From Sedimentisphaerales bacterium (GTDB lineage Bacteria > Planctomycetota > Phycisphaerae > Sedimentisphaerales > Anaerobacaceae): a DNA stretch of 34,045 bases. The notes beneath the pieces are model-generated. The model was given only the letters and a program-made list of their open reading frames with translations. It ran no database searches and was not told the origin of the DNA. A program made the translations under genes and the position numbers. The stretch spans positions 1-34,045 of the forward strand of contig JANQFY010000227.1 in assembly GCA_028277585.1 (NCBI GenBank). Reading direction: 5' to 3'. Shown here piece after piece: positions 20,401-34,045 of this stretch (position 1 is the first letter of the stretch; each line of letters opens with the position of its first letter).

Positions 20401-20738
20401 AGGAGGATGCGACGTTCGAGATTCTGACCCAGCGCAAGGGCCAATCCGTTCGCGTCTTCGAAGGAGGCGAAGGGGTGGAACCCCTGTGCCTGCTGGCCGA
20501 TACGAAGGCGATGATCGGCGCCAAGATCACGCGCACGCACCCGACCACCAAGACGCCCTTCCGCGCCGTCGTACTCGGGTTCTACCTGTCGGATATCCAG
20601 GACGAAGATCAGCGCAAGAATCTTCTCAAGGAGATCCTGACGTTCCTCGACCCGGAGGGGACGATCCCCGTGACACCGCCTTCGGAGAGCGAAGAGAAGG
20701 ACGCGAAAGAAGAGGCGCCGTCCGAGCAGGAAGGCTAG
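17490..20738 (+). CDS. Large secreted clostripain-family (C11) cysteine peptidase with helix-hairpin-helix segment
   Basis: This 1082-residue protein starts at the ATG at 17490, with AAGGAG 8 nt upstream, and has a Sec signal peptide (residues 1-22). Residues about 30-225 are an uncharacterised, charged, mostly helical region. Residues about 231-290 form a ComEA-like helix-hairpin-helix segment (LLDLNETTKEQLLALPSV, then FQGPEELRLIPEVP). The C11 peptidase domain starts near residue 300 (KKWTVMVFLNAANNLEP). The catalytic dyad is visible as H433 in W-N-H-G-A-G-W and C480 in D-A-C-L-M-A. SRSHGLSIYFPAY closes the core. About 250 further residues form an additional domain with a strand such as PRIVVVDNTVG, ending in an acidic tail. 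At 1082 residues it is about twice clostripain's length. The family cleaves after basic residues; its target here is unknown. Confidence 0.9.
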   Translation: MRALRFVLGIGFLCMSLSPLAAGDSEPGAKAEKSDKDVVQIKKELQLLEKVAKRRLLLHFLKAEKDTRGAALGELAPESAGTVRRLFEKDAAFKQLDYHLLEKMENCEKRLLAQLRNDKFQGVEDLLEFVADKKHPDSAIYARLMGTVELNFRYARRKDLIAKDDFAKDLPGRLTETALRVQGTAGHSVTELAKATWKGKKSDALPVWWFDRASATVTFAFAPVPASPDYPLLDLNETTKEQLLALPSVEQETAEAILKYAEKRGFQGPEELRLIPEVPRHLLAPLQTLCKASELKKKKKWTVMVFLNAANNLEPFGIEDLNEMEKVGSSRQVNVVVELARYYPKLKAPAVNSSYFFNPLAERHPVFYYGLDNEPGVSRYYVLQDDDEVRIRSVLKAKGPKADAGRPESLIDFAKWAIEHYPAEHYALVIWNHGAGWSGVSYDDNTHHGMDMPEVRTALEEICATLGDDRRIDILDFDACLMATLEVGYELKDTVDFLLASQALEPGDGMPYDDYLKWLVTYPSAPPVSFAKAMVDSYVHSYAPKGSQVEGDNSAFFETKSAVRLSRMAELRDAVNRVAELLLARPALLGEVTEQVMSDVRRFGRLVDIHDFFTKLAKHQKQDEELKKAVEAVVDLIGYPEDRYKLVNEVVIKRRSKGNVIWGFNGWLAPPRSLAPYVHEGKHAKTPLVGPDERGNYVARLRFRPRLLDPKNKKRVEVKEINYRFEDEQIKRTAKDFKNLFFATDFPENGAVVAEGHMVSNSRSHGLSIYFPAYLGFHPEYQRLQFAKDCPWAQLCARFPLKTLESKREIALLGVQHMTRPERERLGKIVTPEAFRKAARELDTAAPLREALEASGYPFTVTPDPRPYGKDWAELIAQWEPRIVVVDNTVGSPSGRQDPYGYLSSRRPTLPNVQGPDTRTLSEYLGRSGRLLLMSPTILSRSWDWPFYRDVLGLQYGQAWDRSYKFHLAGKEDATFEILTQRKGQSVRVFEGGEGVEPLCLLADTKAMIGAKITRTHPTTKTPFRAVVLGFYLSDIQDEDQRKNLLKEILTFLDPEGTIPVTPPSESEEKDAKEEAPSEQEG

Positions 20739-20777: not shown

Positions 20778-21554
20778 ATGTCATCCGAACTGAACCATGA
20801 GGCGATCGAGCAGGTCGTCGGTTTCCTGAAACAGAGCAACCGCATTCTGTTCATTACAGGCGCGGGCATCTCGGCCGACTCCGGCCTGCCCACTTACCGT
20901 GGCATTGGCGGACTCTACAACGTCGAGACCACCGAGGACGGCCTGCCCATCGAGAAGGCCCTTTCGGGTGACATCATTGACGAACGCCCGGAACTGACGT
21001 GGAAGTATCTCGCGCAGATCGAGCAGACATGCCGCGGCGCAGAGCCGAATCGCGCCCATGAGGTGATCGCGGAAATGGAGGCGCGTTTCGAGCGGATCTG
21101 GACACTGACGCAGAACGTCGACGGGTTTCATCACCGGGCCGGTAGTAAGAATATCATCGATATTCATGGCAACTTGCACGACCTCCGTTGCACGAGCTGC
21201 GACTACTGCCGAACCGTCGAGGACTACAGCAGATTGTCCTTGCCCCCGCGTTGCCCGAAGTGCGAAGCGATCGTGCGCCCTGATGTTGTTCTGTTCGGCG
21301 AGATGCTCCCTCAGGAAAAGGTGCAGAGCCTCTACAAGGAACTCTACGAGGGCTTTGACACGATCTTCACCGTGGGGACCACCAGCGTGTTTCCTTACAT
21401 CGCCGAGCCGATCCGCGTGGCGGGTTCGATGGGCTGGAAGACCGTCGAGATCAATCCGGACACGAGCAATGTGTCGCATCGCGTAGACGTGAAGCTGGCG
21501 ATGCGCGCCGCGACGGCTTTGGAAGCCATCTGGCAGCGATACCTGGAAACGTAG
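20778..21554 (+). CDS. Sir2-family NAD-dependent protein deacylase
   Basis: This 258-residue cytoplasmic sirtuin removes acyl groups from protein lysines with NAD+ as co-substrate. The NAD motif GAGISADSGLPTYRG (residues 28-42), T-Q-N-V-D (111-115), catalytic H130 in D-I-H-G-N, and the zinc ribbon C138-C141 with C159-C162 (CTSC, CPKC) are all present, as is RPDVVLFGE. The length is normal for bacterial Sir2. It starts 39 bp after the peptidase gene and may be co-transcribed with it. It ends only 16 bp from the convergent hydrogenase operon, with no obvious terminator between them. A link to redox state through NAD+ is possible but not shown. The residues used to sort sirtuins into desuccinylase or deacetylase types are not clear to me here. 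Confidence 0.92.
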   Translation: MSSELNHEAIEQVVGFLKQSNRILFITGAGISADSGLPTYRGIGGLYNVETTEDGLPIEKALSGDIIDERPELTWKYLAQIEQTCRGAEPNRAHEVIAEMEARFERIWTLTQNVDGFHHRAGSKNIIDIHGNLHDLRCTSCDYCRTVEDYSRLSLPPRCPKCEAIVRPDVVLFGEMLPQEKVQSLYKELYEGFDTIFTVGTTSVFPYIAEPIRVAGSMGWKTVEINPDTSNVSHRVDVKLAMRAATALEAIWQRYLET

Positions 21555-21570: not shown

Positions 21571-22056
21571 CTACACGGCCAGCGGGAAGAGATCGCGGAG
21601 GAGGCCCGTCACCGTCTGGATGGACTTCCACACAGACGGCGACACCGGCTCTCCCAGTCGCACACACTCCGGCTGGATGCCCAGCAGAAAGACCTCCACG
21701 TCGACATCCTGGCGCAGCATATCGACGAAGAGATGGAGCGACAATGCGTGCGTGGAGAAGGCGAAATCACTGACCTGATCGGGGCGGTACAGTCTCATCT
21801 CTCCGGGCACTCCACCGAAATCAACGGCGTCGACCACCAGGAGATTCTCCGGCGCGGCGTGAACGATCGGCCGGATATAGTTCTCGGGGACGGTCCCGGC
21901 GTCGATCACCCGGGCCGAAATGCTCCCAGTGACATTCTCGCACACGAGCGGGCCGACGCCGTCGTCGCCCTTGAGGATATGCCCCACGCCCAGAATGACG
22001 GTCTCCGAGCCGCGCAGGCTGCCCAGGCACTCTGAGAGATCCCGTTCGTCGCTCAT
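21571..22056 (-). CDS. hycI: Hydrogenase maturation endopeptidase, HycI-like
   Basis: This 161-residue protease belongs to the HycI/HyaD/HybD family, which removes the C-terminal extension of a [NiFe]-hydrogenase large subunit after nickel is inserted. The N-terminal motif reads LGVGHILKGDDGVG. D32, D76 (VVDAVDFGG) and H103 (STHALSL) correspond to the nickel-sensing ligands of the family, by inference from E. coli HycI. IDAGTVPENY is typical of the HycI branch serving group 4 enzymes. It is the last gene of the operon; its ATG lies 4 nt after the stop of the NuoI-like gene and has no good ribosome binding site, so translational coupling is likely. The matching substrate is the large subunit at 28658-29875, which carries an uncleaved extension. 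No other hyp genes lie in the window. Confidence 0.92.
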   Translation of the reverse strand: MSDERDLSECLGSLRGSETVILGVGHILKGDDGVGPLVCENVTGSISARVIDAGTVPENYIRPIVHAAPENLLVVDAVDFGGVPGEMRLYRPDQVSDFAFSTHALSLHLFVDMLRQDVDVEVFLLGIQPECVRLGEPVSPSVWKSIQTVTGLLRDLFPLAV

Positions 22057-22060
22057 GGCG

Positions 22061-22693
22061 TCACAGCCGGATGTTCAACTCGCACTTGCACTTGGGGCAG
22101 AGAATCCGCATGAAGTCACGGGTCTGCATCTCCTTGGGCGCTGCCTCGGTCGGCGTCTTGGCGCCTTCCGACCCGTTGCCTCCGGAGCCATTCTTCCAGA
22201 GCGCTGCATTCTTGGCCAGCAGCAGAGAGGGATTGGTGTACGCCAGCGGACCAAGCTTCTCGTAGAGCCAGACCAGGTGCTTCTTCGTGCCAATCACGGC
22301 GCCGCACTTCTCGCACAACTGAAGTTCATGCTCGTGAACCTCCGCCATGCTCTCTCGGTCCAGCCCCGCCAGGTCCCACTGATTCGACAGTTCGATGCCG
22401 CGTTCGGTAGTGCAGCCGTCCTGACAGTTGCCGCAGAAGATACACGTATCGTAGCGTAAGGTGATCTTCCGGATCGATCGATCCCCATTGACCTCGTCGA
22501 CCTGGGTCAGCGCCTTGGTCGGACATACATTGACGCATGCCCCGCAGCCCACACACAGATCAGGATCGAATTCGGGCTTGCCCCGATAGCGATCGGGCAC
22601 GATGCAAGGTTCAGCCGGGAAGCGCGTCGTGAAGCGGGGCGACACGACAGCCCGGACCGCCTCTTTCAATTCTCGTAGTTTCGGTAAACGCAC
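22061..22693 (-). CDS. NuoI/HycF/MbhN-like two-cluster ferredoxin subunit with zinc-ribbon cysteines
   Basis: This 210-residue iron-sulfur subunit of the hydrogenase complex starts at a GTG at 22693, supported by AAGGAG 7 nt upstream. Two [4Fe-4S] motifs are visible: C47-x2-C50-x2-C53-x3-C57 (CVGCGACVNVCP) and C84-x2-C87-x2-C90-x3-C94 (CIFCGNCQDGC, with Thr instead of Pro after the last Cys). Two further pairs, C127/C130 and C199/C202, can form a zinc ribbon, a feature of NuoI-type subunits of group 4 hydrogenases; a Gly/Ser-rich linker at about 168-185 separates them. It should pass electrons between the electron-entry proteins and the NuoB-like small subunit. It lies far from the other hydrogenase core genes, after the Mrp genes, and just before the maturation protease. 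Confidence 0.88.
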   Translation of the reverse strand: MRLPKLRELKEAVRAVVSPRFTTRFPAEPCIVPDRYRGKPEFDPDLCVGCGACVNVCPTKALTQVDEVNGDRSIRKITLRYDTCIFCGNCQDGCTTERGIELSNQWDLAGLDRESMAEVHEHELQLCEKCGAVIGTKKHLVWLYEKLGPLAYTNPSLLLAKNAALWKNGSGGNGSEGAKTPTEAAPKEMQTRDFMRILCPKCKCELNIRL

Positions 22694-23345: not shown

Positions 23346-23849
23346 CTACTCGAAAATCTTGTGAAGGAACCACTCGAATCGCTGGGCGATCAACTGTGTC
23401 GCCGGCTCGATGTCCTCGGCCTGCACATTGATCCAATGGATGTACAGATAACCGTCATCGGTCAGATCGACGGTCAGTGTGCCCGGCGTCAGAGTGATGG
23501 AGTTGGCTAGCGCAGTAATCGCCGAATCGGTCTTCAGGCTCGTCTTGATCTTGACGATCCCCGGCCGGATCGGCATCGCCGGGTGCAGGGCGCGATAGAC
23601 CACATCCAGATTGGCGCGGAGGACATAGTAGAAGAACACGGGGACATACGCCAGGAACCAGAAGACCCGGACCGGCGAGATGAAGACGTGGTGCTCCTTG
23701 GGCAGGATGTCGTGGAACAGCAGCGCCACGAGCAGCGAGGCCATCAGCCCGGCGACGACCACCTGAACATCGATCCGTCCGTCCACGAAGGGCCAGGAGA
23801 CCAGGATCCAGACCAAAAACGCCAGTACGAAATAGATCAAACGTCGCAT
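23346..23849 (-). CDS. mrpE: MrpE/MnhE (MbhA-like) antiporter subunit
   Basis: This 167-residue protein has two or three N-terminal membrane helices followed by a cytoplasmic domain. RANLDVVYRALHP and ITLTPGTLTVD are the hallmark stretches of the MrpE/MnhE family. GAGG lies about 9 nt before the ATG. In archaeal mbh operons the equivalent gene (mbhA) comes first, ahead of mbhB and mbhC; here E-F-G follow the MrpD gene instead. Gaps to the neighbours are 18 bp and 14 bp, indicating one transcript. Its role is structural within the ion-translocating arm. Confidence 0.93.
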   Translation of the reverse strand: MRRLIYFVLAFLVWILVSWPFVDGRIDVQVVVAGLMASLLVALLFHDILPKEHHVFISPVRVFWFLAYVPVFFYYVLRANLDVVYRALHPAMPIRPGIVKIKTSLKTDSAITALANSITLTPGTLTVDLTDDGYLYIHWINVQAEDIEPATQLIAQRFEWFLHKIFE

Positions 23850-23867: not shown

Positions 23868-25382
23868 TCAATGCGCCACCACGGCCGCCGGCGCTGTGCC
23901 CGCCTGGACCAGGACGTCGACCGCCGGTTGCAGAACCGTCTCTCGCAATCCCGGGAGCAGGACCAGCAGACTCATGGCCAAACAGAGCACCGCCAGGAAG
24001 GCCATCGCCCCGAGCATGAAGCCTCCGTTCTCCTGCGTACGCTCAAGATCCTCGGGCAACTGGCCCAGGAAGACATAGCGCTGTACCTTCAGGAACGAAA
24101 GCAACGTCACCAAACTGACGATCACCGTCACCGCCGCCAGAAGATAGAACCCCGCCTGAACGGCGGCGAGGACCAGAATCAGCTTGCTCCAGAATCCATT
24201 GAAAGGCGGCACGCCGGCGATCGACGCCGAGGCGATCGCACACGTCGCCCGCGTGTAGGGCATCCGTTCGACGAGTCCGCCCATCTTCTTGAGCTGTCGG
24301 GTCCCCGTCGCCATCTCCACCGAACCGCTGGCCAGGAACAGAAGCGATTTGAAGACCGCGTGATTGAGCAGGTGGAACAGGCCGCCCAGGATGGCCAGGG
24401 ACGCCCACAGGGGATCCCCTTCTCGCGCGAGGATCAGTGCGCCCAGGCCCACGCCCAGAACAACATAGCCCATCTGTGAGATGCTGTGGTAGGCGAGCAG
24501 GCGTTTGAAGTCCCACTGCCCGACCGCCAGGAAGACGCCAATCACCATGCTCGAGACGCCCAGCGCAATCAGGACCCAGGCGACGGGAACGGAGACGCCG
24601 AAGACCGTGAAGATCAAGCGCGCCAGAACGTAGACGCCCAGCGCCTTGATCAGCACGCCCGAGAGCATGGCGGAGATCGGCGCCGGCGCCGAGGGATGCG
24701 CGTCGGGCAGCCAGGCATGGAAGGGAACCAGGGCGGCTTTGAGACCGAACCCTGCGACGAACAAGCTCAAGGCAAACGCCAGACCGATGTTCATTCCGAT
24801 CTGACGGATCGTCGCGGAGATCTGCGCCATGTTGAGCGATCCGGTATTGGCGTAGACGAGCGCGACGCCGAAGAGAACGAGCGCCGAGGCGACACTGCCC
24901 AGCACCATGTACTTGAACGACGCTTCGAGTTCCTCGTGCTCCCCTCCGAAGCCAACCAGCGCATAGGACGCAATGGAAGCGATCTCCAGAAACACATAGA
25001 GATTGAAGATGTCCCCCGAGAGGACGACGCCGTTCATGCCGGCGACCATCAACAGAAACAAGCTGAAATACTTGGGCTTGGCGGTGTACTGCTCCATGTA
25101 GCGAACGCTGAAGAGCATCGCCGCGGCGCTGATGACGCCGATCGCCAGGAGCAGGAGCGAACTGAGACCGTCCAACACGAGGTTGATGCCGAGCGGAATC
25201 GTCCAGTTCCCCATCGCATACGTTCCCGTCTTGCCGACAGACATCACCGCCAGGGCAAGCAGAGTGAGCGTCACAAGATTGGCCAGCAGGGTCGCGACAG
25301 GTTTGAGCCCCCCCTTCAAGACAGGGAGTACGAACGCCGCCACCAGGGGAATGGCTACGAACATGGGCAAGGGCGCATTCAT
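23868..25382 (-). CDS. mrpD: MrpD/MnhD (MbhH-like) antiporter subunit, NuoL/M/N family
   Basis: This 504-residue polytopic protein has about 14 membrane helices of the complex-I antiporter type. Key residues are visible: E133 in YVFLEIASIASYAL on TM5, K215 in GLKAALVPFHAWLPDAH on TM7, and the broken-helix stretch DFKRLLAYHSISQMGY. These form the proton or sodium path along the membrane axis in homologues. The ATG at 25382 overlaps the stop of mrpC by an ATGA motif. The last 30 residues are a short polar tail. This is the first of two NuoL/M/N-type subunits of the operon (the other is at 26794-28656). The AHPSAPAPISAMLSGVLIK stretch fits MrpD/MbhH better than NuoL. Confidence 0.94.
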   Translation of the reverse strand: MNAPLPMFVAIPLVAAFVLPVLKGGLKPVATLLANLVTLTLLALAVMSVGKTGTYAMGNWTIPLGINLVLDGLSSLLLLAIGVISAAAMLFSVRYMEQYTAKPKYFSLFLLMVAGMNGVVLSGDIFNLYVFLEIASIASYALVGFGGEHEELEASFKYMVLGSVASALVLFGVALVYANTGSLNMAQISATIRQIGMNIGLAFALSLFVAGFGLKAALVPFHAWLPDAHPSAPAPISAMLSGVLIKALGVYVLARLIFTVFGVSVPVAWVLIALGVSSMVIGVFLAVGQWDFKRLLAYHSISQMGYVVLGVGLGALILAREGDPLWASLAILGGLFHLLNHAVFKSLLFLASGSVEMATGTRQLKKMGGLVERMPYTRATCAIASASIAGVPPFNGFWSKLILVLAAVQAGFYLLAAVTVIVSLVTLLSFLKVQRYVFLGQLPEDLERTQENGGFMLGAMAFLAVLCLAMSLLVLLPGLRETVLQPAVDVLVQAGTAPAAVVAH

Positions 25383-25747
25383 CCTCGCAACCTCCTAATC
25401 TCGGTGATGTCGAACGTGCCGTACTTGGCATAGGTCCGGATGCAGATCGAAATCATCAGGGCCAACGAACCCAGGCTGATGACGATCGAGGTCAGCACCA
25501 GCGCCTGCGGCAAGGGGTCGACCGAAGCGTTCAGGAACTCTGAGGCAATCGCCTTGGTGGCGCCGTCATACTGGGAGCGTTCGATGATCGGGGCGACGCC
25601 GCCCTTGACGTAGCCGAGCATGATCAGGAAGAGGTTCACCGCGTACTCCATGATCACGATGCCCAGAACGATCTTGACCATGTTCTTCTTCACCACGGCG
25701 CAATACAGCCCGATCATGAACAGCAGGAAACACAATGCATAGGCCAT
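25379..25747 (-). CDS. mrpC: MrpC/MnhC (MbhG-like, NuoK-type) antiporter subunit
   Basis: This 122-residue protein has three membrane helices and is of the NuoK/MrpC type. The ATG at 25747 is chosen because AAGGAG lies 7 nt upstream and the preceding frame is polar. The conserved glutamate in IVIMEYAVNLFLIM (TM2) and the late DPLPQALVLTSIVISLG, where the DPLPQALVLT block is diagnostic, are both present. In Mbh complexes the equivalent MbhG contributes to the ion path between MbhH and the rest of the membrane arm. It starts 4 bp after mrpB and overlaps mrpD by ATGA, so expression is tightly coupled. Confidence 0.94.
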   Translation of the reverse strand: MAYALCFLLFMIGLYCAVVKKNMVKIVLGIVIMEYAVNLFLIMLGYVKGGVAPIIERSQYDGATKAIASEFLNASVDPLPQALVLTSIVISLGSLALMISICIRTYAKYGTFDITEIRRLRG

Positions 25748-25751
25748 GGTT

Positions 25752-26234
25752 CTACTCCTTGCCCCTGACGCCCGGGTCCGCCAGATCCTGTTCGGTCGGC
25801 TGCTGGGATTCGGCACGAAAGGCGGCCAGCGTGAGGATGACGAGAAACAGTGACGCGCCGACCTTGATGCCGATCGCCATGTTCGACAGCGGAATCGTGC
25901 CGGCGCTGACCAACGCGAATGGCTCTCCGGGGAAGTATTCCTGGTAGAGGAAGTTCACGAAGAATGTCCCGCCGCAGACCAGGCCCAGAATGGCGATCAG
26001 CGCGAACAGGAACGCACCGAGACAATCCAGCCGGGAGGCGAGCGACCCCGGAAGGTTGGACGCGACGAAACTTCGTCCGAAAGCGAGCATCAGCAGTACG
26101 TAGGACGAAGCCAGAATCACACCGCCGGCAAACCCCCCGCCGGGCGTGAGGTGTCCGGAGAGAATGATGTAGATCCCGAAGAGGAAGATCAACACCTTGA
26201 CCCAACTGCTAACGGTCTTGACGATGACAGTCAT
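25752..26234 (-). CDS. mrpB: MrpB/MnhB (MbhF-like) antiporter subunit
   Basis: This 160-residue membrane protein has four hydrophobic segments. GHLTPGGGFAGG (residues 27-38) is the defining MrpB/MnhB motif. The ATG at 26234 overlaps the stop of the preceding MbhD-MbhE gene by ATGA. The cytoplasmic tail after residue 145 is polar (AESQQPTEQDLADPG). In Mbh hydrogenases the equivalent MbhF is part of the sodium-translocating unit shared with Mrp antiporters. The stop lies 4 bp before the mrpC start. Confidence 0.94.
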   Translation of the reverse strand: MTVIVKTVSSWVKVLIFLFGIYIILSGHLTPGGGFAGGVILASSYVLLMLAFGRSFVASNLPGSLASRLDCLGAFLFALIAILGLVCGGTFFVNFLYQEYFPGEPFALVSAGTIPLSNMAIGIKVGASLFLVILTLAAFRAESQQPTEQDLADPGVRGKE

Positions 26235-26782
26235 AGCTCGGGGTCCTCCAATCGCTTGCGACTGCGGCTGCGCAGGATCGCGGTCGCACCGATAACAGCG
26301 GTAAACAGTACGGTCGCCTCGCCCAGCGTGTCATAGGCGCGGTAGTCCAGATAGATGGACGTTACGATATTGGTTGCTCCGGTATCGTTCAGACCCTTGG
26401 CGATGTATGCCTGGGAGGCCGCTTCCGGGCGCTGCGCAAAAACGGGCTCGCCGAACTCAGGCAGCGTGTCGCAGATCCGCATGCCCGCCATAAAGACCAG
26501 GAACAGAATCACCACGGATGCAACCGTGCCGAAGAACTCCCGATCGCCACTGATGAAGGTCAGATCGCGCGAAATCGTCGCGCGGATCAGAATGACCAGC
26601 CCCAACACCTCCACCACGATTTGTGTCATGGCGATGTCCGGGGCTCGTAACAGGAGGAACATCAACGAACCGCCGAAGCCAATGGCGCCGACGCAGATCA
26701 CCGCGCTGAGCAGGTCTTTGGTCTCGACCGCAATGATCGCCGCGATCACCATGAAGATGAGCAGAATGTAAAACAAGGCCAT
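26231..26782 (-). CDS. MbhD-MbhE fusion (MrpA C-terminal part, DUF4040 plus MbhE domain)
   Basis: This 183-residue membrane protein starts at the ATG at 26782, with AAGGA 8 nt upstream; the frame runs 34 codons further up, inside the preceding gene. Residues 1-70 match the MbhD/DUF4040 part of MrpA (LLRAPDIAMTQIVVEVLGLV). Residues about 84-171 match MbhE (LDYRAYDTLGEATVLFTAVI). In the archaeal mbh operon these are two genes; in Mrp antiporters they form the C-terminus of the large MrpA. Here they are one small protein, separate from the NuoL-like gene upstream. It links the hydrogenase side to the Mrp-type subunits and overlaps mrpB by ATGA. Confidence 0.88.
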   Translation of the reverse strand: MALFYILLIFMVIAAIIAVETKDLLSAVICVGAIGFGGSLMFLLLRAPDIAMTQIVVEVLGLVILIRATISRDLTFISGDREFFGTVASVVILFLVFMAGMRICDTLPEFGEPVFAQRPEAASQAYIAKGLNDTGATNIVTSIYLDYRAYDTLGEATVLFTAVIGATAILRSRSRKRLEDPEL

Positions 26783-26793
26783 CGCCGTCGTCC

Positions 26794-28656
26794 TTACCAG
26801 ATATTGCAGAGCATCAGCAGAACCAGCAGCAACCCGAGAACCACCCACGTCAGGTAGACGGGCAGGACACCGTTGTGCAGCCACCGGAGCAGCCCGGTCA
26901 GCGCCAGGCCTGCCCGGCCGCTCTGGTCGTACAGATCGAAATGCCCCCGTCGCTGTACGCTGTATAACTGTTTGAGTCCCTTCATCGAGGAGACCGTCTT
27001 GTAGAAGTGTGTCCCCGGGATAATCATGTCGTCATTCGCCTGTGTCTCGCCACATGCCCAGGTCGGGACCGACCGCACCTGCTTGGCAAACGCGCTGACG
27101 AACAGCACGATCGCACCGACGCCAATCCCAATCAACAGTAGCGCCGTCGCCAGGATGGCGTTCCAGGACCCCAACGCCGCCTCGGTTTCCTCCGCCGCGC
27201 CCAGAGCGGGCAAGATGAACTGGCGCAGAGGAACGCGATAGAACACGCCGAAGAAGACGCACAGGAAAGCCAGCACCAGCATCGGCGCCGTCTGGAGACC
27301 CGAAGCCTCCTTCGTCTCGCGCAGCCGATCGGGCACGCGCGACAGGAAGATCGAATGGAGGATCTTGACGAACGAAGCCAGCGTCAGGGCGCTGCCGAAC
27401 ATGGCGCCGAGCAGCCAGAGAGGCCACATCACGCCGGCCGCTCCGGTCTGGGTCCGGCCCATCTCGACGACGCCGTGATAGACCATCCACTTGGAGGCGA
27501 ATCCGTTGAGCGGCGGGATGCCGGAAATGCTCAGGGCCGCGATCAGACAGGCGACGAATGTCAAAGGCATCCTCTTGCCCAATCCACCGAGTTCCTCCAA
27601 CTCGGCCGTGCCGGTCGCGTCTTCCACCGCCCCGCCACAGAGGAACAGACACGACTTGTAGATGGCGTGGTTGAGCATGTGGAACACCCCGCCGGCGATG
27701 CCGATCGGCGTCATGGTCGCGATCCCCAAGATCATATAGCCCACCTGGCTGATCGCATGGTACGAGAGCAGTCGCTTGAGATTGTGCTGGACCATCGCAA
27801 TCATGACGGCAATGACGATGGTCGCCACGCCGATGATCGCCAGAACCAGACTCAGCGCCCCGCCGCTCTTGAGCACGAACATGCCGCGCGTGATCACGAT
27901 CAGAAGGTAGATCCCGAGCAGTTTGTCCAGGGCGGCCGGCAGCAGCGCCATGACTGAGGTGGGAGCGTACTCGCCTCCGGTGGGAAGCCAGGTGTGCAAG
28001 GGCATGGCGCCGGCCTTGGTGATTGCGGCTAACATCAGCAGCAAGAATGCGATCACGGGCAGCGCCGATGTCGTCGCCAGGCTGATCTGCGAGATGACGA
28101 ACGTCCCCGATAGCGCCCAGACCATCGCGGCGCCCAACAGGAAACTGGCGTCGGAAGCGCCAATCATCGCGAAGCTCTTGGTCGCCGCGAAATTGGAGTC
28201 TTTGCCCCCCGTGCTGATGAGCAGGTACAGCGCCGCCGTGACGATCTCCCAGAAGATCAGCAAGAACAACAGATGATCGCAGAGCAGAATCCCCGCGGAC
28301 CCGCCGATCGCCAACAGGATCGAGCCGTAGTATTCGTTGATGCGGCGCACGCTCGCGCTGGACTTGAACGAATAGAGGGTGATCAGCACGCCGAAGCCCA
28401 TCGCGAACATCAGGATGAACGACCCCAGGGGTTGGGTCGTCAGCAACAGGTCCAACGTGAACGCGTCCAAGGCCAGCACGGTCCAGGTGTAGGCGCCTTC
28501 ATCGAGCCGAAAGATCCGAATCGAGAACACCAGCGCGGCGACCGAGACCATCAATGCCACCACTTGAGAGAGTCGTCCCAGCGAGCGGGGCAGGAACAGC
28601 ATGACGAACCCGACCGCCAGAGGCACTATGACCGGATAGAGCAGGATCGTATCCAA
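26794..28656 (-). CDS. Long NuoL/MrpA-like proton-conducting subunit of the hydrogenase complex
   Basis: This 620-residue antiporter-type subunit starts at a TTG codon at 28656, with GGAGG 9 nt upstream inside the end of the large-subunit gene. About 14 core helices carry E137 (IFWEIVTAALYLL), K214 (ITKAGAMPLHTWLP) and K294 (HNLKRLLSYHAISQ), the charged residues of the ion channel. The C-terminal 110 residues include a cytoplasmic loop (VPTWACGETQANDDMIIPGT) and a last helix, reminiscent of NuoL/HyfB-type or Mbx H'-type proteins, and it is clearly longer than the MrpD at 23868. Together with MrpD it gives the complex two candidate ion-pumping subunits. The gap to the MbhD-MbhE start is 11 bp. 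Confidence 0.88.
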   Translation of the reverse strand: MDTILLYPVIVPLAVGFVMLFLPRSLGRLSQVVALMVSVAALVFSIRIFRLDEGAYTWTVLALDAFTLDLLLTTQPLGSFILMFAMGFGVLITLYSFKSSASVRRINEYYGSILLAIGGSAGILLCDHLLFLLIFWEIVTAALYLLISTGGKDSNFAATKSFAMIGASDASFLLGAAMVWALSGTFVISQISLATTSALPVIAFLLLMLAAITKAGAMPLHTWLPTGGEYAPTSVMALLPAALDKLLGIYLLIVITRGMFVLKSGGALSLVLAIIGVATIVIAVMIAMVQHNLKRLLSYHAISQVGYMILGIATMTPIGIAGGVFHMLNHAIYKSCLFLCGGAVEDATGTAELEELGGLGKRMPLTFVACLIAALSISGIPPLNGFASKWMVYHGVVEMGRTQTGAAGVMWPLWLLGAMFGSALTLASFVKILHSIFLSRVPDRLRETKEASGLQTAPMLVLAFLCVFFGVFYRVPLRQFILPALGAAEETEAALGSWNAILATALLLIGIGVGAIVLFVSAFAKQVRSVPTWACGETQANDDMIIPGTHFYKTVSSMKGLKQLYSVQRRGHFDLYDQSGRAGLALTGLLRWLHNGVLPVYLTWVVLGLLLVLLMLCNIW

Positions 28657-28657
28657 T

Positions 28658-29875
28658 TTAGATATCCTCCAGTTTCATCACCGGCGTCCCGATCTCCTTA
28701 CGCAGTTGCGCCGTCTTGGCGCGGCTGAGTTGCAGGAGGCTGGCGTAGTCGTGGATCACCGAATCGTGGCTGTCCAGCACCGCGACACGCTCCGTGCAAC
28801 TGTAGCAAGGATCGACGGCCGCCAGCGTCAGGGTCACATCCGCAATGTGCTGACCGATGCAGGACGCCTTGAACGAAGGGACGTTGACATAGCTCGGGGC
28901 GCGGACCTTGTGCCGAATGGGCCGGTTGCCTCCGTCGCTGCGTACGTAGTGGAACGTCTCACCGCGCGGGGCCTCGGCATGGCCGCATCCTTCGCCGGGC
29001 GGAATCTCCTTGACCTCGGCCGCCACCGGTCCCGAGGGCAGTTTCTGTAGCGCCTCGCGGACCATCTTGATCGATTCGAACGTCTCCAGTAACCGCACGA
29101 CCGCCTTGGCGAACACGTCACCCTCGGTCTGACTGATCACCTTCCAGTCGAGATCGGCGTAAGCGGCGTAGGGATCGTCGTGCCGCACATCGATCGGGAC
29201 GCCGCTGCCGCGCGCCGTCGGACCGGTCACCGCGAAGTCAACGGCCGCGTCCTTCTGCAACACTCCGACGCCCTTGAGCCGCGCGTGCAGGACAGGATCG
29301 TCCAGGACCGCCTTGGTGAGCATCTCCGTCTTCTTCTCGATCGTGTCCAGCTCCGCCAGAATCCGGGGGCGAACGTCGTCCGGCACATCCTCGCGACAGC
29401 CCCCGATCCGAACGTTTCCATAGTTGTTTCGGTTGCCCGTAATCTCCTCCAGCAGATCGAGTACGGGCTCGCGGTACTTCCACGCCCACATGAAGACGGT
29501 GTCGTACCCGATGAAATGCCCGGCCAACCCCACCCAGAGCAGGTGACTGTGGATGCGCTCCAACTCGTTGATGATCGTCCGGACGTAGAGCGCGCGTTCA
29601 GGCACCTTGACCTGGGCGATCTCCTCCACCGCCTGCACGTACGCCAGCGGGTGCGAAGCCGAACAGATCCCGCAAATCCGCGAGACCAGAAACGGCACCT
29701 GGTCGAACTGCAGTGTCTCGCTGAGCTTCTCGATGCCGCGATGATTGTAGGAAATCCGGACATCGATATCCGTGACCGTTTCGCCGTCGACGGTCAGTTG
29801 AAAGAACTCCATTTCCTCCTGAAGAGGATGGAAGGGGCCGACCGCCAAAACCGATTTTCGCGCCGTCTCTTTCAT
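28658..29875 (-). CDS. Group 4 [NiFe]-hydrogenase large (catalytic) subunit, MbhL/HycE/EchE-like
   Basis: This 405-residue catalytic subunit carries both nickel-binding pairs: C68-x2-C71 in SRICGICSASH near the N-terminus and C357-x2-C360 in DPCYSCTER near the C-terminus. Their presence separates it from NuoD, which lost them, and predicts a functional Ni-Fe site that forms or oxidises H2. After R363 there is a 42-residue tail starting VAVLDSHDSV; in the HycE group the tail is removed after this Arg, and a HycI-like protease gene ends the operon. The ATG overlaps the NuoC-like gene by ATGA. NuoC-like and NuoD-like parts are separate genes, as in Mbh and Ech, not fused as in HycE. Confidence 0.95.
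   Translation of the reverse strand: MKETARKSVLAVGPFHPLQEEMEFFQLTVDGETVTDIDVRISYNHRGIEKLSETLQFDQVPFLVSRICGICSASHPLAYVQAVEEIAQVKVPERALYVRTIINELERIHSHLLWVGLAGHFIGYDTVFMWAWKYREPVLDLLEEITGNRNNYGNVRIGGCREDVPDDVRPRILAELDTIEKKTEMLTKAVLDDPVLHARLKGVGVLQKDAAVDFAVTGPTARGSGVPIDVRHDDPYAAYADLDWKVISQTEGDVFAKAVVRLLETFESIKMVREALQKLPSGPVAAEVKEIPPGEGCGHAEAPRGETFHYVRSDGGNRPIRHKVRAPSYVNVPSFKASCIGQHIADVTLTLAAVDPCYSCTERVAVLDSHDSVIHDYASLLQLSRAKTAQLRKEIGTPVMKLEDI
28666..28670 (-). promoter_or_regulatory. Ribosome binding site supporting a TTG start
   Basis: On the minus strand GGAGG lies 9 nt before the TTG at 28656. It overlaps the last codons of the large-subunit gene, whose TAA ends one base before the TTG. The next in-frame ATG is 18 codons further in, within the first membrane helix, so TTG is the better start. 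Confidence 0.6.
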
Positions 29876-30312
29876 GGTTGCACTTCCTTCCGCAAGGGGT
29901 ACACTCCCTCCGGCCAGTCGTCGTTCAGGATCAGACGCTGCAAGTTCGGATGATGGGTGAACGCGATTCCCAAGATGTCATGAATCTCCCGCTCGATCCA
30001 TTCGGCGCCGGGGATCAGCGGCGTGATCGAATCGAGTTCGGGATTCTCACGGTCGCGCACGAAGGCCTTGACCGTCACCATGCAACCACATTCGTCGTCG
30101 GCAAAGTGGTGTAGCACCTCGAAGCAGTGCTCGGCGTCCACGCCTGTTGTGATCACGAACCGCAGGTTCAGCGTATCGAACAGGAACCGGCAGACGTCAT
30201 AGACGTTCTCCGATTCGCAGAGCAGATAGACGCGGTTCTCCTGCGTGCGCTCGATACCGATGAGTCGATCCGCCGTTTCTTCGAGTCGCTTGTCGAGCGT
30301 TTGCTGATTCAT
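29872..30312 (-). CDS. NuoC-like (MbhK/EchD-type) hydrogenase subunit
   Basis: This 146-residue soluble subunit belongs to the 30-kDa NuoC family. The signature part is IPGAEWIEREIHDILGIAFT followed by HPNLQRLILNDDWPEG and PLRKE, close to the E-R-E-x-x-D-x-x-G motif of NuoC. The N-terminal 90 residues form an alpha/beta domain. It should pack beside the large subunit in the hydrophilic arm and has no cofactor ligands. It starts 12 bp after the small-subunit gene and ends in an ATGA overlap with the large-subunit gene. Confidence 0.92.
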   Translation of the reverse strand: MNQQTLDKRLEETADRLIGIERTQENRVYLLCESENVYDVCRFLFDTLNLRFVITTGVDAEHCFEVLHHFADDECGCMVTVKAFVRDRENPELDSITPLIPGAEWIEREIHDILGIAFTHHPNLQRLILNDDWPEGVYPLRKEVQP

Positions 30313-30324
30313 AGTCAGTCTCTT

Positions 30325-30756
30325 CTAAATCGCGGCCAGCGCCTTGACGACGCCGGAGATCATCGCCTCGGGTTTCGGAGGGCAACCGGGCACGTAGGCT
30401 ACAATGGCGTTCGGATCGACCTCCTTGACGATCTTGTCCACCGGGCCCGCGACATGATAGGCGCCTTCGAAGATGCCCGTCCCACACGCGCAGGCGCCCA
30501 TGCAGAAGACCACGCACGGCTTGGACGTCTGACGATACACCTCCTGCAGCCGCAGCGCCGCCTGACGGGTTCCCACTCCAGTGACCAGCAGCGCGTCGGC
30601 GTGACGGGGCGAGCCCACCAGCTTGATGCCGAACCGCTCCACGTCGAACTTCGGGGTCAGCAGGTTCACGATTTCGATGTCACAGTTGTTGCACGCGCCG
30701 GTGTTGACGTGAAAGACCCAAACCGACTTCTTCAATGACCATAGCTTCCAATTCAT
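30325..30756 (-). CDS. NuoB-like (MbhJ/EchC-type) hydrogenase small subunit with proximal [4Fe-4S] cluster
   Basis: This 143-residue small subunit delivers electrons to the Ni-Fe site. Cluster ligands are C22 and C25 (GACNNCDIEIV), C89 (CMGACACGTG) and C125 (PGCPPKPEA), as in group 4 hydrogenases and NuoB. Cysteines at 81, 85 and 91 are extra. The N-T-G-A-C-N-N-C motif is typical of Mbh, Ech and HycG-type proteins. AAGGTGAG precedes the ATG, and it lies 9 bp after the NuoH-like gene. It is short and lacks any membrane segment. Confidence 0.94.
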   Translation of the reverse strand: MNWKLWSLKKSVWVFHVNTGACNNCDIEIVNLLTPKFDVERFGIKLVGSPRHADALLVTGVGTRQAALRLQEVYRQTSKPCVVFCMGACACGTGIFEGAYHVAGPVDKIVKEVDPNAIVAYVPGCPPKPEAMISGVVKALAAI

Positions 30757-30765
30757 GGGCTCACC

Positions 30766-31722
30766 TTAAAGCCATGTGAGGCCGTAGTAGTTCCCCAGCA
30801 TCGCCAGGATGACCGCCGCGACCAGCAGTGGGCCGCAGTAGCACCAGAAGAACCGCATCGCTTGGTCGATCCGCACGCGGGGATTCGTGTTCTTGATCAG
30901 GATCACCAAGACGAGCACGATCACGTATTTGCCGATCCCTCCGCCCAGCGCCCACCCCGAAGTCCCGACGCCGCCCAGGAAGACGACCACCAGGAAGAGG
31001 GGAAGCGCCACCAGCATCAACGTTTGCATGAGCTTCCAAACGGCCAGCAACGCCCCGGAGTATTCGATCATGACGCCGCTGGCGACTTCAGTTTCCGATT
31101 CGGCGATATCGAACGGCACGAAGCCGAGCTTGGCCTGCACACACAGCAGCGCCACGATGAAGGCCAGCGCCCCCGAGATACTTGCAACGGGCGTGTGTTG
31201 AGCGATTGCGACCAGACTCAACTGCTCGGCGGGTTCCAGCACGCCGGCGGTCTTGACCACCGCGACGATGAACGCCAGGATCAGAGGCAATTCGTACCCC
31301 ATGACCAGCTTCATCTCCCGGGCCGCTCCGACCGACGCGTGAGGACTGCCGCTCGAACTGCTGCCCAGGATCAACGCCAACGAGGGCAAGACCATCAGGT
31401 AGATCGCGACGATCACATCGCCCACGAAAGCTACCCCCGCGCCGGCCAGCCAGAGCATCGCCGCCAGGAGCAGCACACCCGAGAGCCCCACCAACGGGGC
31501 CGCCACGAATACGGCGCGATGGGCCTCCTCGGGGATGAGAATCTCCTTGCCCATCAGTTTCATCACATCCACCGCCGGCTGGTACACGGGTGGGCCGACG
31601 CGGTACTGCACCAGCGCACTGACTTTGCGCACCAGCCAGGAGGCGAGCAGCCCGACCGCCAGGGTGAAGACGAAGCCCGGAAAGATCAGAATCCAGAACA
31701 GATTGGTCAGCACCTCCATCAT
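30766..31722 (-). CDS. NuoH-like (MbhM/HycD/EchB-type) membrane anchor subunit
   Basis: This 318-residue protein has about eight membrane helices. The family hallmark VPFDIAESETEVASG (about residues 200-215) and VQYRVGPPVYQPAVDVMKL near the N-terminus are the stretches that form the quinone-like pocket in complex I and the hydrogenase interface in Mbh. It anchors the hydrophilic arm to the membrane and couples redox change to ion movement. The ATG at 31722 overlaps the stop of the preceding ferredoxin gene by ATGA; a second ATG directly follows it. Confidence 0.95.
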   Translation of the reverse strand: MMEVLTNLFWILIFPGFVFTLAVGLLASWLVRKVSALVQYRVGPPVYQPAVDVMKLMGKEILIPEEAHRAVFVAAPLVGLSGVLLLAAMLWLAGAGVAFVGDVIVAIYLMVLPSLALILGSSSSGSPHASVGAAREMKLVMGYELPLILAFIVAVVKTAGVLEPAEQLSLVAIAQHTPVASISGALAFIVALLCVQAKLGFVPFDIAESETEVASGVMIEYSGALLAVWKLMQTLMLVALPLFLVVVFLGGVGTSGWALGGGIGKYVIVLVLVILIKNTNPRVRIDQAMRFFWCYCGPLLVAAVILAMLGNYYGLTWL

Positions 31723-32243
31723 CGCTCGGCCCCCTGCTTATCCTTCAGGAATGGTTCCCACGTCTGCCCCCCGGCGACCTTGGCGACGATCCCGTCGAAG
31801 ACCTCCACTAGATCGCCGCCCGCCTTGACGGCCCGGTAGTCCAGAGCCCCATCCGAGCAAGTCTGAACGCAGAGGGGCTTCTCACCATCCTCAAGGCGGT
31901 CCCGGCAGAGATCGCAGACACTGCTGGGATACGGAATCAGGTCGGTATAGACCGTCCCGAAGGGACACGCGATCGCGCAGGTGCCGCAACCGGTGCAGAG
32001 CATGTTGGCCCGCTTGAGAATCCCGGCGTCATGCGTTTCGCTCGGCGCCTTCTCCAGCGCGCCCTGGGGACAGGCCTTAACGCAGGGAGCGCTCTGACAC
32101 CGGCGGCAGATCAGCGCGAAGCGGACCATCTCCAGCAGCGCGTCGAAGCCTCGGTTGCCCGGATGGTGCTTGTACGAGCACTGAACCTGCGAATCCGCCT
32201 GCAGGTCGGCCTTGGCGATATCGATGATCAGTTTCGCACTCAT
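31719..32243 (-). CDS. HycB/HydN-like polyferredoxin, three [4Fe-4S] clusters
   Basis: This 174-residue electron-transfer protein has twelve cysteines in three cluster-like groups: C46, C49, C54, C58 (CRRCQSAPCVKACP), C83, C86, C89, C93 (CTGCGTCAIACP) and C110, C113, C125, C129 (CDLC...CVQTC). Spacing is that of the HycB/HydN/DMSO-reductase beta family, which links formate dehydrogenase or other donors to hydrogenase. In this operon it lies between the FAD protein and the membrane anchor, so it may wire the flavin module to the hydrogenase core. The gap to the upstream flavoprotein is 33 bp. The donor could be NAD(P)H, ferredoxin or an enzyme encoded off-window. Confidence 0.9.
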   Translation of the reverse strand: MSAKLIIDIAKADLQADSQVQCSYKHHPGNRGFDALLEMVRFALICRRCQSAPCVKACPQGALEKAPSETHDAGILKRANMLCTGCGTCAIACPFGTVYTDLIPYPSSVCDLCRDRLEDGEKPLCVQTCSDGALDYRAVKAGGDLVEVFDGIVAKVAGGQTWEPFLKDKQGAER

Positions 32244-32276: not shown

Positions 32277-33098
32277 TCACTCCCATATCTTCGGGTACTT
32301 CTGGACTTGTGCGTAGGTGAAGACCGGGCCGTCCTTGCAGACGTAGTACTTGCCCAGCATGCAGTGTCCGCACTTGCCGATCCCGCAGCTCATGTTCTTC
32401 TCCATCGACAGGTAGATGCGCTCCGGGTCGAATCCGTACTCCAGCAGGTTGATCGTCGCGAACTTCATCATGATGGGCGGGCCGCACACCACCGCGACGG
32501 CGTTCTTGATGTCCACGTCCTTCGGATCGAGAATCGTCGTGACCACCCCCACGTTGCCGTCCCAGTCTCCGTTGCACTCGTCAACGGTCAGCTTCATCTC
32601 CACGCCGTCCAATTCCCGCCAACTGCCAAAAAGTGTGTGCTTGTAGATGAAGTCTTCCGGCGTCCGCGCCCCGAACCGACAGACCACCTTCTTGAAGTCT
32701 CCGATGCGATCGGCCAGCGTCAGGAAGAGCGACCGGATCGGCGCCAGACCGACCCCGCCGCCGACGATGTAGACCTCTTTGCCGACGAATTCGTCGATCG
32801 GATAGCCCTTCCCATAGGGCCCCCGGATGGCGACAGGCTGGCCCTTCTGGCAGGTGTGCAACTGGGCCGTGATGCGGCCGGCCTTCATGATCGTGATTTC
32901 CATCTTCTCCTTGATCGCCGGCGATGAAGAGGGCGTAAAGGGCGCTTCGCCCTCGCCAGGGAGCGTCAACTCAACGAACTGCCCCGTCTCGAAGCCGAAC
33001 TCCTGTTCCGGCGCGATCACGAAACTCTTGATCGTCGGAGACTCGTCGATCACCTCGACGATTTCGCCGTTGATGGGTTGGTACAGATTCGCCTTCAT
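32277..33098 (-). CDS. FAD/NAD(P)-binding [2Fe-2S] protein, sulfhydrogenase gamma (HydG) or AsrB-like
   Basis: This 273-residue ferredoxin-NADP reductase-type protein has a FAD-binding barrel (residues about 1-105, with FTPSSSP in place of the R-x-Y-S motif), a nucleotide-binding domain (VYIVGGGVGLAPIRSLFL, then AVVCGPPIMMK) and a C-terminal PyrK-like [2Fe-2S] site, C238, C243, C246, C254 (CGIGKCGHC). This is the architecture of the gamma subunit of archaeal sulfhydrogenase and of AsrB of anaerobic sulfite reductase. It should exchange electrons with NAD(P)H. Its ATG overlaps the stop of the beta-like gene by ATGA, as expected for partners. The Asr reading is unlikely because no AsrC is present and hydrogenase genes follow. 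Confidence 0.92.
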   Translation of the reverse strand: MKANLYQPINGEIVEVIDESPTIKSFVIAPEQEFGFETGQFVELTLPGEGEAPFTPSSSPAIKEKMEITIMKAGRITAQLHTCQKGQPVAIRGPYGKGYPIDEFVGKEVYIVGGGVGLAPIRSLFLTLADRIGDFKKVVCRFGARTPEDFIYKHTLFGSWRELDGVEMKLTVDECNGDWDGNVGVVTTILDPKDVDIKNAVAVVCGPPIMMKFATINLLEYGFDPERIYLSMEKNMSCGIGKCGHCMLGKYYVCKDGPVFTYAQVQKYPKIWE

Positions 33099-34045
33099 TT
33101 TGTCTTCTTCGCTACCACCCTGCCCTTGTCGGTCAGTTCATCACTCAGCTTCCTGAGCAGAACACGGATATCCACCTCGCCGGCTTCTGCGTCGACGCAC
33201 CGCCCACATCCGACGCACATCTCCACGCCGTAGCGTTCGAGGAAGTAGTTGAACTTGTGCATCATGCGGTGCCGCAGCCGGTCGCCGAGCATTTCCCTCG
33301 GGTTGCCCCCTCCGGCCACGGCGGCATAACCCGTCCGCATGCAACTGTCCCACATCTTCATCTTGCCGAAATAGTCTTGTTGCTTGGTGTCGTACAGGTA
33401 GAAGCAGTGGCAGGTCGGACAGACTCGCGTGCAGGCCTGACACTCCACGCACGTCTCGGCCTGTTCGTCGAATACGTCGGATTCATACCCGCGCTCGACC
33501 ACTTCCTGGGGCAGCGCCTTGAGTTGGAACTCGCCGTTGGCCTTCTCCAGTTGCGCGCGTGTCGCCGCCCGGTGCTTCTCGCGCTCGGCCAACAGCGCGT
33601 CGGGCACATCCCCAAACAACGACGTCTGCGCGGTCAGGAAGCGTCTGCCTTTGTTCGAACCGGCCTGGATGATGAAGCCGTCATCGACGGTCGAGACGCT
33701 CAGATCGAAACCCTCCTCCGGATAAGGCTGGCCCGCCAGAATGCTGCAGAAGCAACTCTCGTGCGGGTCCGAGCAGTCCGACGCGATCACAAGCATCTTC
33801 TCGCGTCGTGCGACATAGAGCGCATCCTCGAACTCCTCCTCCAGGAACACCTTGTCCAGGATCTCCATGGAGCGCAGGTCGCAGGCCTTGAGTCCGAAGA
33901 CAGCGAACGGCGCCACCTCGTTCGGCGTGGTCGGCTCGGGGAACACGGCCGCCAGTTCACGGAGCGGGAAGAGGAATTCCTTCACCGGCGTGCACACGCG
34001 AACGTCGTTGAACTCCGGAGCTTGCGCGTCCTCGGGATCGTAGCT
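33095..34045 (-). CDS. Sulfhydrogenase beta (HydB) or AsrA-like iron-sulfur protein, N-terminus outside window
   Basis: The frame is open to the right edge, leaving 316 visible residues; the GTG at 33995-33997 lies mid-frame and is not taken as a start. The visible part has the family stretch AVFGLKACDLRSMEILDKVF, then DCSDPHESCFC, a first cluster motif CVECQACTRVCPTCHC and, near the C-terminus, CVGCGRCVDAEAGEVDI. In the last motif the fourth cysteine expected three residues after the third is Glu (codon GAA at 33185-33187), and the following Pro is Ala. This protein is the electron-transfer partner of the FAD protein encoded next. Together they resemble the HydB-HydG pair that lets sulfhydrogenases use NADPH, here attached to a membrane hydrogenase operon. 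The operon continues off-window upstream. Confidence 0.9.
   Translation of the reverse strand, partial: SYDPEDAQAPEFNDVRVCTPVKEFLFPLRELAAVFPEPTTPNEVAPFAVFGLKACDLRSMEILDKVFLEEEFEDALYVARREKMLVIASDCSDPHESCFCSILAGQPYPEEGFDLSVSTVDDGFIIQAGSNKGRRFLTAQTSLFGDVPDALLAEREKHRAATRAQLEKANGEFQLKALPQEVVERGYESDVFDEQAETCVECQACTRVCPTCHCFYLYDTKQQDYFGKMKMWDSCMRTGYAAVAGGGNPREMLGDRLRHRMMHKFNYFLERYGVEMCVGCGRCVDAEAGEVDIRVLLRKLSDELTDKGRVVAKKTK

Follow-up and report, generated by a model that had tools for sequence, protein, structure and literature searches.

The locus raises the question of how an Fe-S subunit with two ferredoxin-type Cys motifs holds its clusters when the last Cys of the second motif has become Glu. 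The window, i.e. the whole stretch of DNA analysed (34,045 nucleotides, the entire contig G000:C30), carries the gene on its minus strand. The open reading frame, translated from the span 33095-34045 (minus strand), contains ERYGVEMCVGCGRCVDAEAGEVDIR and, towards its C-terminal end, ERYGVEMCVGCGRCVDAEAGEVDIRVLLRKLSDE. Its 5' end is cut by the contig end at 34045 and the N-terminus is missing. The features of the subunit are as follows.

33098..34045, minus strand: HydB/AsrA-like Fe-S subunit (316 aa, P0001), from translation, Pfam, phmmer and the model of an orthologue
33404..33451, minus strand: motif I, C199-VE-C202-QA-C205-TRV-C209-PT-C212-H-C214, from the sequence, all Cys invariant in relatives
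33182..33217, minus strand: motif II, C277-V-G-C280-G-R-C283-V-D-A-E287-A, from the sequence, aligned with 61 relatives
33185..33187, minus strand: Glu287 codon GAA (plus strand TTC), replacing the expected fourth Cys, from the sequence

Two complete CxxCxxCxxxC motifs are not present in the window protein, as motif II ends in E287. Translation confirms the central observation of the preliminary description, Glu (GAA) in place of the fourth motif-II Cys; the motif itself is real, and its position is 33182-33217, six bases away from the 33176-33211 first quoted. The relatives use TGT or TGC for Cys, GAT or GAC for Asp and GAA or GAG for Glu at this site, and a change from TGY to GAA or GAG takes three base changes, one to GAY two, in agreement with the earlier claim that several are demanded. 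A sequencing, assembly or frame artefact might be suspected where an open reading frame extends off a contig end, but independent MAGs carry Glu or Asp at position 287 in intact frames and with differing codons. The orthologues refute a sequencing or frame error, which had rightly been called unlikely, and leave an artefact of any kind a negligible probability.

The identity of the subunit was established from domain and fold. Pfam places a Fer4_22 dicluster domain at residues 198-286 of the window protein (E 4.7e-29), and phmmer matches the protein to the beta subunit of Pyrococcus furiosus SHI (9nez_B, E 2.3e-45). An AlphaFold model of L003, a full-length orthologue (mean pLDDT 90.3), superimposes on 9nf0_B and 9nez_B with Z ~34.7 over 329 residues (rmsd 2.4), the next structural matches being FdhB- and FrhB-type proteins. 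An FrhB/FdhB-like N-terminal domain and a Fer4_22 dicluster domain with the HydB fold are thus both found. The best NCBIfam models for the window protein are HydB (NF040833, 160 bits against a cut-off of 750), ShyB (NF040829, 155 against 690) and AsrA (TIGR02910, 153 against 323), all far under their equivalog cut-offs, and full-length L003 likewise stays under them (HydB 155, ShyB 166, AsrA 131 bits). Because the modelled fold matches 9nf0_B so closely while the NCBIfam scores remain below the cut-offs, the subunit is, by its predicted fold, of the HydB/AsrA type without being a member of these equivalogs. The window's own genome also has a HydB-like paralogue (G000:C529, L002) that keeps the Cys, CVGCGRCVGACLPGIAN; it belongs to a second HydBG pair at G000:C529:5878-8822, accompanied by a distant [NiFe]-type large subunit and with canonical Cys.

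The gene stands at the head of a hydrogenase operon.

32277..33098, minus strand: HydG/AsrB-like subunit for FAD and NAD(P)H, with four Cys (CGIGKCGHC...C) for a [2Fe-2S] cluster towards its C-terminus; NCBIfam AsrB 215 bits, HydG 184 bits, and sequence
31719..32243, minus strand: CooF/DmsB-like polyferredoxin subunit, first CxxCxxC motif degenerate; DmsB-type match, sequence and comparison
30766..31722, minus strand: NuoH-like membrane subunit
30325..30756, minus strand: NuoB-like small subunit, in part from the sequence
29872..30312, minus strand: NuoC-like subunit
28658..29875, minus strand: group 4 [NiFe] hydrogenase large subunit (NuoD-like) with RICGIC and DPCYSC; sequence and motifs of relatives
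26794..28656, minus strand: NuoL/MrpA-like antiporter subunit
26231..26884, minus strand: MrpA C-terminal-like (DUF4040) subunit
25752..26234, minus strand: MrpB-like subunit
25379..25816, minus strand: MrpC/NuoK-like subunit
23868..25382, minus strand: MrpD-like subunit
23346..23849, minus strand: MrpE-like subunit
22061..22693, minus strand: NuoI-like 2[4Fe-4S] ferredoxin subunit
21571..22056, minus strand: HycI-type hydrogenase maturation protease

The order on the minus strand is HydB, HydG/AsrB, CooF/DmsB, NuoH, NuoB, NuoC, NuoD-like, NuoL, MrpA-C, MrpB, MrpC, MrpD, MrpE, NuoI-like and HycI, and it is kept in other planctomycete genomes with Glu, Asp or Cys at position 287. NuoB, NuoC and NuoH homologues, antiporter subunits and a maturation protease thus share one operon, which is intact, with the Ni ligands in place, in relatives of both the acidic and the Cys state. 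Since the large subunit and its relatives have both Ni ligand motifs (RICGIC and DPCYSC), the enzyme is a genuine group 4 [NiFe] hydrogenase, and the complex is of the Mrp type with an attached module. Domain, fold and operon evidence together uphold the earlier placement of a HydB/AsrA-type subunit beside a group 4 hydrogenase. A single flavoprotein, of the FNR type (HydG-like), was identified in the module. The module probably uses NAD(P)H, and the HydB-like subunit is probably the one through which electrons from NAD(P)H enter the membrane hydrogenase.

Several observations were made at or around related genes. Beside the operon the window encodes a 1082-aa clostripain-family (C11) peptidase at 17490-20738 (plus strand), followed by a SIR2-family open reading frame at 20778-21554 (plus strand). 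At L085 (G006) and L090 (G074) HydB is intact, HydG is matched only to residue 110/142 and no hydrogenase genes adjoin; a NuoD-like hydrogenase was not found anywhere in G006, and one lies ~600 kb away in G074. G076 has a second HydB copy at L160 (6765-7568, minus strand); its match, which lies inside an open frame of 700 aa, breaks off ahead of motif II, and within a few kb there are distant matches of hydrogenase type (HycI, NuoD, HydG).

Conservation of position 287 was followed through orthologues gathered at the level of family, class and phylum and from named genomes; the closest of these genomes are without exception Planctomycetota MAGs, most of them titled Sedimentisphaerales, Phycisphaerae or Phycisphaerales. 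The preliminary description had asked whether C-V-D-A-E is conserved in relatives; it is so in part: of the 37 order-level orthologues (Sedimentisphaerales/Phycisphaerae), 18 carry Glu at the site, 8 Asp and 11 Cys. Cys occupies it in 24/24 outgroups (order, class and phylum level) and, mostly as Cys-Pro, in 66/67 named loci that are more distant (27-37% identity, L092-L158); the match to L155 fell on motif I and not on motif II, which leaves that locus uninformative here. Residues other than Cys, Asp and Glu were not seen at 287 in orthologues, outgroups or distant loci. Homologues with a standard Cys-Pro had been named as evidence against the first reading. They exist, e.g. P. furiosus HydB with CVGCGRCTAFCPANI, and they mark the substitution as derived without speaking against its existence. 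The Pro that usually follows the fourth position is a separate matter: it is missing in most members of the hydrogenase-linked subfamily, with or without the Cys. Because Cys-bearing relatives also lack it (C-A/L/M/Y-G), its loss stands apart from the event, and the alignment indicates that it is older than and unrelated to the change from Cys to acid, of which the Ala had initially been taken to be a part.

The 26 acidic rows span a subtree of ~6.4 substitutions per site, over which position 287 is only Glu (18) or Asp (8). Columns restricted to Asp and Glu make up 3 of the 238 variable columns in these rows, and columns 288-291, directly beside the site, vary. C199, C202, C205, C209, C212, C214, C235, C277, C280 and C283 are kept in all acidic and all Cys rows, and C55, C91, C98 and C100 are missing from no more than one or two acidic rows, among which are L014, masked there, and L015, truncated there. 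The loss of a run of Cys in the acidic rows was considered and rejected, the other motif Cys being retained. An alternation of thiolate and carboxylate with nothing else accepted would be the expected look of a metal ligand, and it suggests that in this clade of uncultured planctomycetes the swap of Cys for Glu or Asp marks a real change in how the cluster is held. It is on the whole probable that the substitution places a carboxylate as fourth ligand on a retained [4Fe-4S] cluster. Glu is longer than Cys and rarer as a ligand than Asp, which counts against ligation in the Glu-bearing members.

The cluster concerned is probably not the one first named. A ferredoxin domain of the interleaved 2[4Fe-4S] type builds each cluster from three leading Cys of one motif and the fourth Cys of the other, and a CP-type Cys of motif II normally ligates the motif-I cluster. 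If the domain of this subunit interleaves in the usual way, E287 would be paired with C199, C202 and C205, and C209 with C277, C280 and C283; E287 thus probably completes the motif-I cluster, and the earlier assignment is probably the wrong way round. From the conservation pattern we infer that the carboxylate binds iron, and from the fold which cluster it binds.

Two other accounts keep the cluster and deny the acid this permanent role. The first, considered unlikely, has the site hold a [3Fe-4S] cluster, either permanently or in exchange with a [4Fe-4S] form, the acid being nearby and bound loosely or on demand, and would give the complex a switch of higher potential or one sensitive to oxygen or iron. 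Where three Cys serve a 4Fe site, the fourth iron is indeed often labile, yet a pure [3Fe-4S] site needs no carboxylate and would leave the restriction to Asp and Glu over so long a subtree without a reason. From general knowledge, an obligate [3Fe-4S] cluster would also be energetically awkward in a low-potential wire to a hydrogenase. More favourable to this account, the Asp-ligated cluster of Pyrococcus has an aerobically labile Fe, and substitution of a Cys in PsaC can yield a [3Fe-4S] cluster (PMC4070099). The second account, for which the odds appear poorer again, makes C209, C212, C214 or C235 the fourth ligand, originally or by replacement, and the acid a second-shell residue such as a helix cap or salt bridge partner. 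These four Cys are invariant in 61/61 rows, and the six CxxCxxC Cys added to them make more than the eight ligands that two clusters need; but they are just as invariant where 287 is Cys, which gives no sign of compensation, and column counts over the 61-row alignment revealed no new Cys column consistent in the acidic rows. A second-shell role would, moreover, leave the alternation of Cys with Asp and Glu only unexplained. Ligation of a retained [4Fe-4S] cluster by the carboxylate fits this alternation better.

Loss of the cluster, the third fate originally offered beside a [3Fe-4S] and a Glu-ligated cluster, can be judged together with the neighbouring genes. In most of the clade the first CxxCxxC of the CooF-like subunit is gone and the sequence reads CxxQxxSxxxC; the window has AxxQxxSxxxC, KADLQADSQVQC. 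The motif is retained at four outgroup loci where HydG and CooF lie far enough apart for a molybdopterin-type gene; this gene was seen directly in L161 and L164, and L167 and L168 show a matching gap. L162 and L166 have neither the molybdopterin-type gene nor the first CooF motif. This distribution suggests that the lost CooF-like cluster was the contact to a molybdopterin-type subunit. A tie between the acid state of HydB and the loss of the CooF motif was rejected, as L012 (Glu) and L047 (Asp) keep the motif and L007 (Cys) is without it. By analogy with this decay of a whole motif next door, and with the truncated HydG beside HydB in G006 and G074, the HydB-like subunit might itself be one cluster short, electrons bypassing the site. 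A lost cluster should let its other ligand Cys drift, however, and C199, C202, C205, C277, C280 and C283 are kept in 26/26 acidic rows; there is no relaxation, whereas in the CooF-like motif the Cys themselves vary. Loss is disfavoured on these grounds and must be regarded as very improbable. Among the original options, ligation by Glu or Asp is the best supported, and loss, with the other ligands unrelaxed, is without support.

The history of the site was traced on a tree computed with the motif masked, whose backbone is weakly supported. Parsimony gives a minimum of 7 switches between Cys and acid (10 if Glu and Asp are counted separately). By an approximately unbiased (AU) test, a single clade that unites all acidic rows is rejected (p 0.021), but no longer once L035 is omitted (p-AU 0.361). 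A strong claim of many independent switches was abandoned on this account, and the count of 7 is soft because a single origin plus conversion of L035 is not rejected. It is safe to state one change from Cys to acid and at least one further change within the group of L007, L034 and L035. L007 (Cys) and L035 (Asp) are near-identical sisters (amino-acid branches about 0.02), yet 21/48 bases differ between them in the fourth-ligand block against 52/1011 elsewhere (Fisher p 1e-13). The tract in L035 spans ~48 bp at about positions 960-1008 of the gene, so that the whole block has been exchanged, and it is nearest to DADAG-type genes, with 8/48 differences each to L037 and L049. The further change in this group is recombination that converted Cys to Asp in L035. 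L007 and L034 differ in another divergent tract, at about positions 506-598 of the gene; because it sits elsewhere, recombination is not special to the ligand block.

A mechanism may be proposed on this basis. The subunit would supply the Fe-S half of HydBG, a probable NAD(P)H-oxidoreductase module that docks on the Mrp-linked group 4 [NiFe] hydrogenase. NAD(P)H would reduce the FAD of the HydG-like subunit, and electrons would pass through its [2Fe-2S] cluster to the HydB clusters, the ferredoxin-like subunits and the [NiFe] site, or in reverse, with their transfer coupled to the Mrp-type membrane arm. Where Glu or Asp replaces the fourth motif-II Cys, it would become the fourth ligand of a kept [4Fe-4S] cluster within this wire. 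Carboxylate ligation probably changes the potential or the lability of the cluster: the potential, probably lowered, or the coupling may be altered, or the iron may be labile, site-differentiated and exchangeable. The ligand would in this way tune or gate electron flow between the HydG flavin and the hydrogenase. It is a more tentative, and on present evidence doubtful, extension that in this Mrp-type hydrogenase lineage one [4Fe-4S] cluster of the NAD(P)H module has an exchangeable Cys/Asp/Glu ligand site that sets the potential or gates electron entry and is swapped among relatives by short recombination tracts and point mutation.

Natural exchanges of a Cys ligand for Asp or Glu that are fixed across a clade are uncommon and are usually known one protein at a time. 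Because the Cys and Asp orthologues L007 and L035 are near-identical, matched natural proteins are available in which to test how the ligand affects potential and electron coupling. The site is relevant, too, to the exchange of electrons between NAD(P)H and group 4 hydrogenases that carry AsrAB modules.

Among characterized proteins, HydB of P. furiosus SHI (chain B of 9nez and 9nf0) shares with the window subunit the fold, the Cys pattern and a neighbouring HydG-type flavoprotein. The Pyrococcus protein has the canonical fourth Cys and serves a soluble hydrogenase, whereas the window subunit has Glu or, in its relatives, Asp there and is the partner of a membrane group 4 hydrogenase. As a whole, the complex has a known architecture, that of an AsrAB/CooF-Mrp-type group 4 hydrogenase, since Saganbacteria RX5A has been described with a hydrogenase, Mrp-like subunits and cooF, asrA and asrB as a putative oxidoreductase module, a complex that was called enigmatic (PMC6349859). 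By gene content the two sets are alike. Compared by gene description only, the window clade differs in being without the molybdopterin-type gene carried by outgroup loci, in its degenerate first CooF-like motif and in the Glu or Asp at the AsrA-like fourth ligand.

Carboxylates and related side chains are known as Fe-S ligands in other enzymes, e.g. Glu in GltS and Gln in DPD (PMC8097209). In NfnL the proximal [4Fe-4S] cluster has a Glu ligand, and its replacement by Cys alters electron partitioning, uncouples the two branches and causes a leak between them (PMC9503767). NfnSL thus presents three Cys and one Glu on a [4Fe-4S] cluster of an NAD(P)H-Fe-S-flavin enzyme, the arrangement proposed for the window subunit; NfnL is, however, an unrelated protein whose Glu-ligated cluster takes electrons from a bifurcating flavin, of which none is evident in the window system. 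In the ferredoxin of Pyrococcus the Asp stands at the second position of CxxCxxC, and in NsrR the Asp ligand is supplied by the other monomer. The NsrR cluster is a [4Fe-4S] with an Asp ligand (PMC5411485). A [NiFe] hydrogenase tolerated Asp better than any other substitute for Cys, Pyrococcus ferredoxin being the natural example, and one cited Asp variant of PsaC had a lower potential (PMC4070099). Pyrococcus ferredoxin and NsrR both have a carboxylate as the single non-Cys ligand, as is proposed for the window subunit; unlike them, the latter would carry its acid at the fourth position, usually CP, and as either Glu or Asp.
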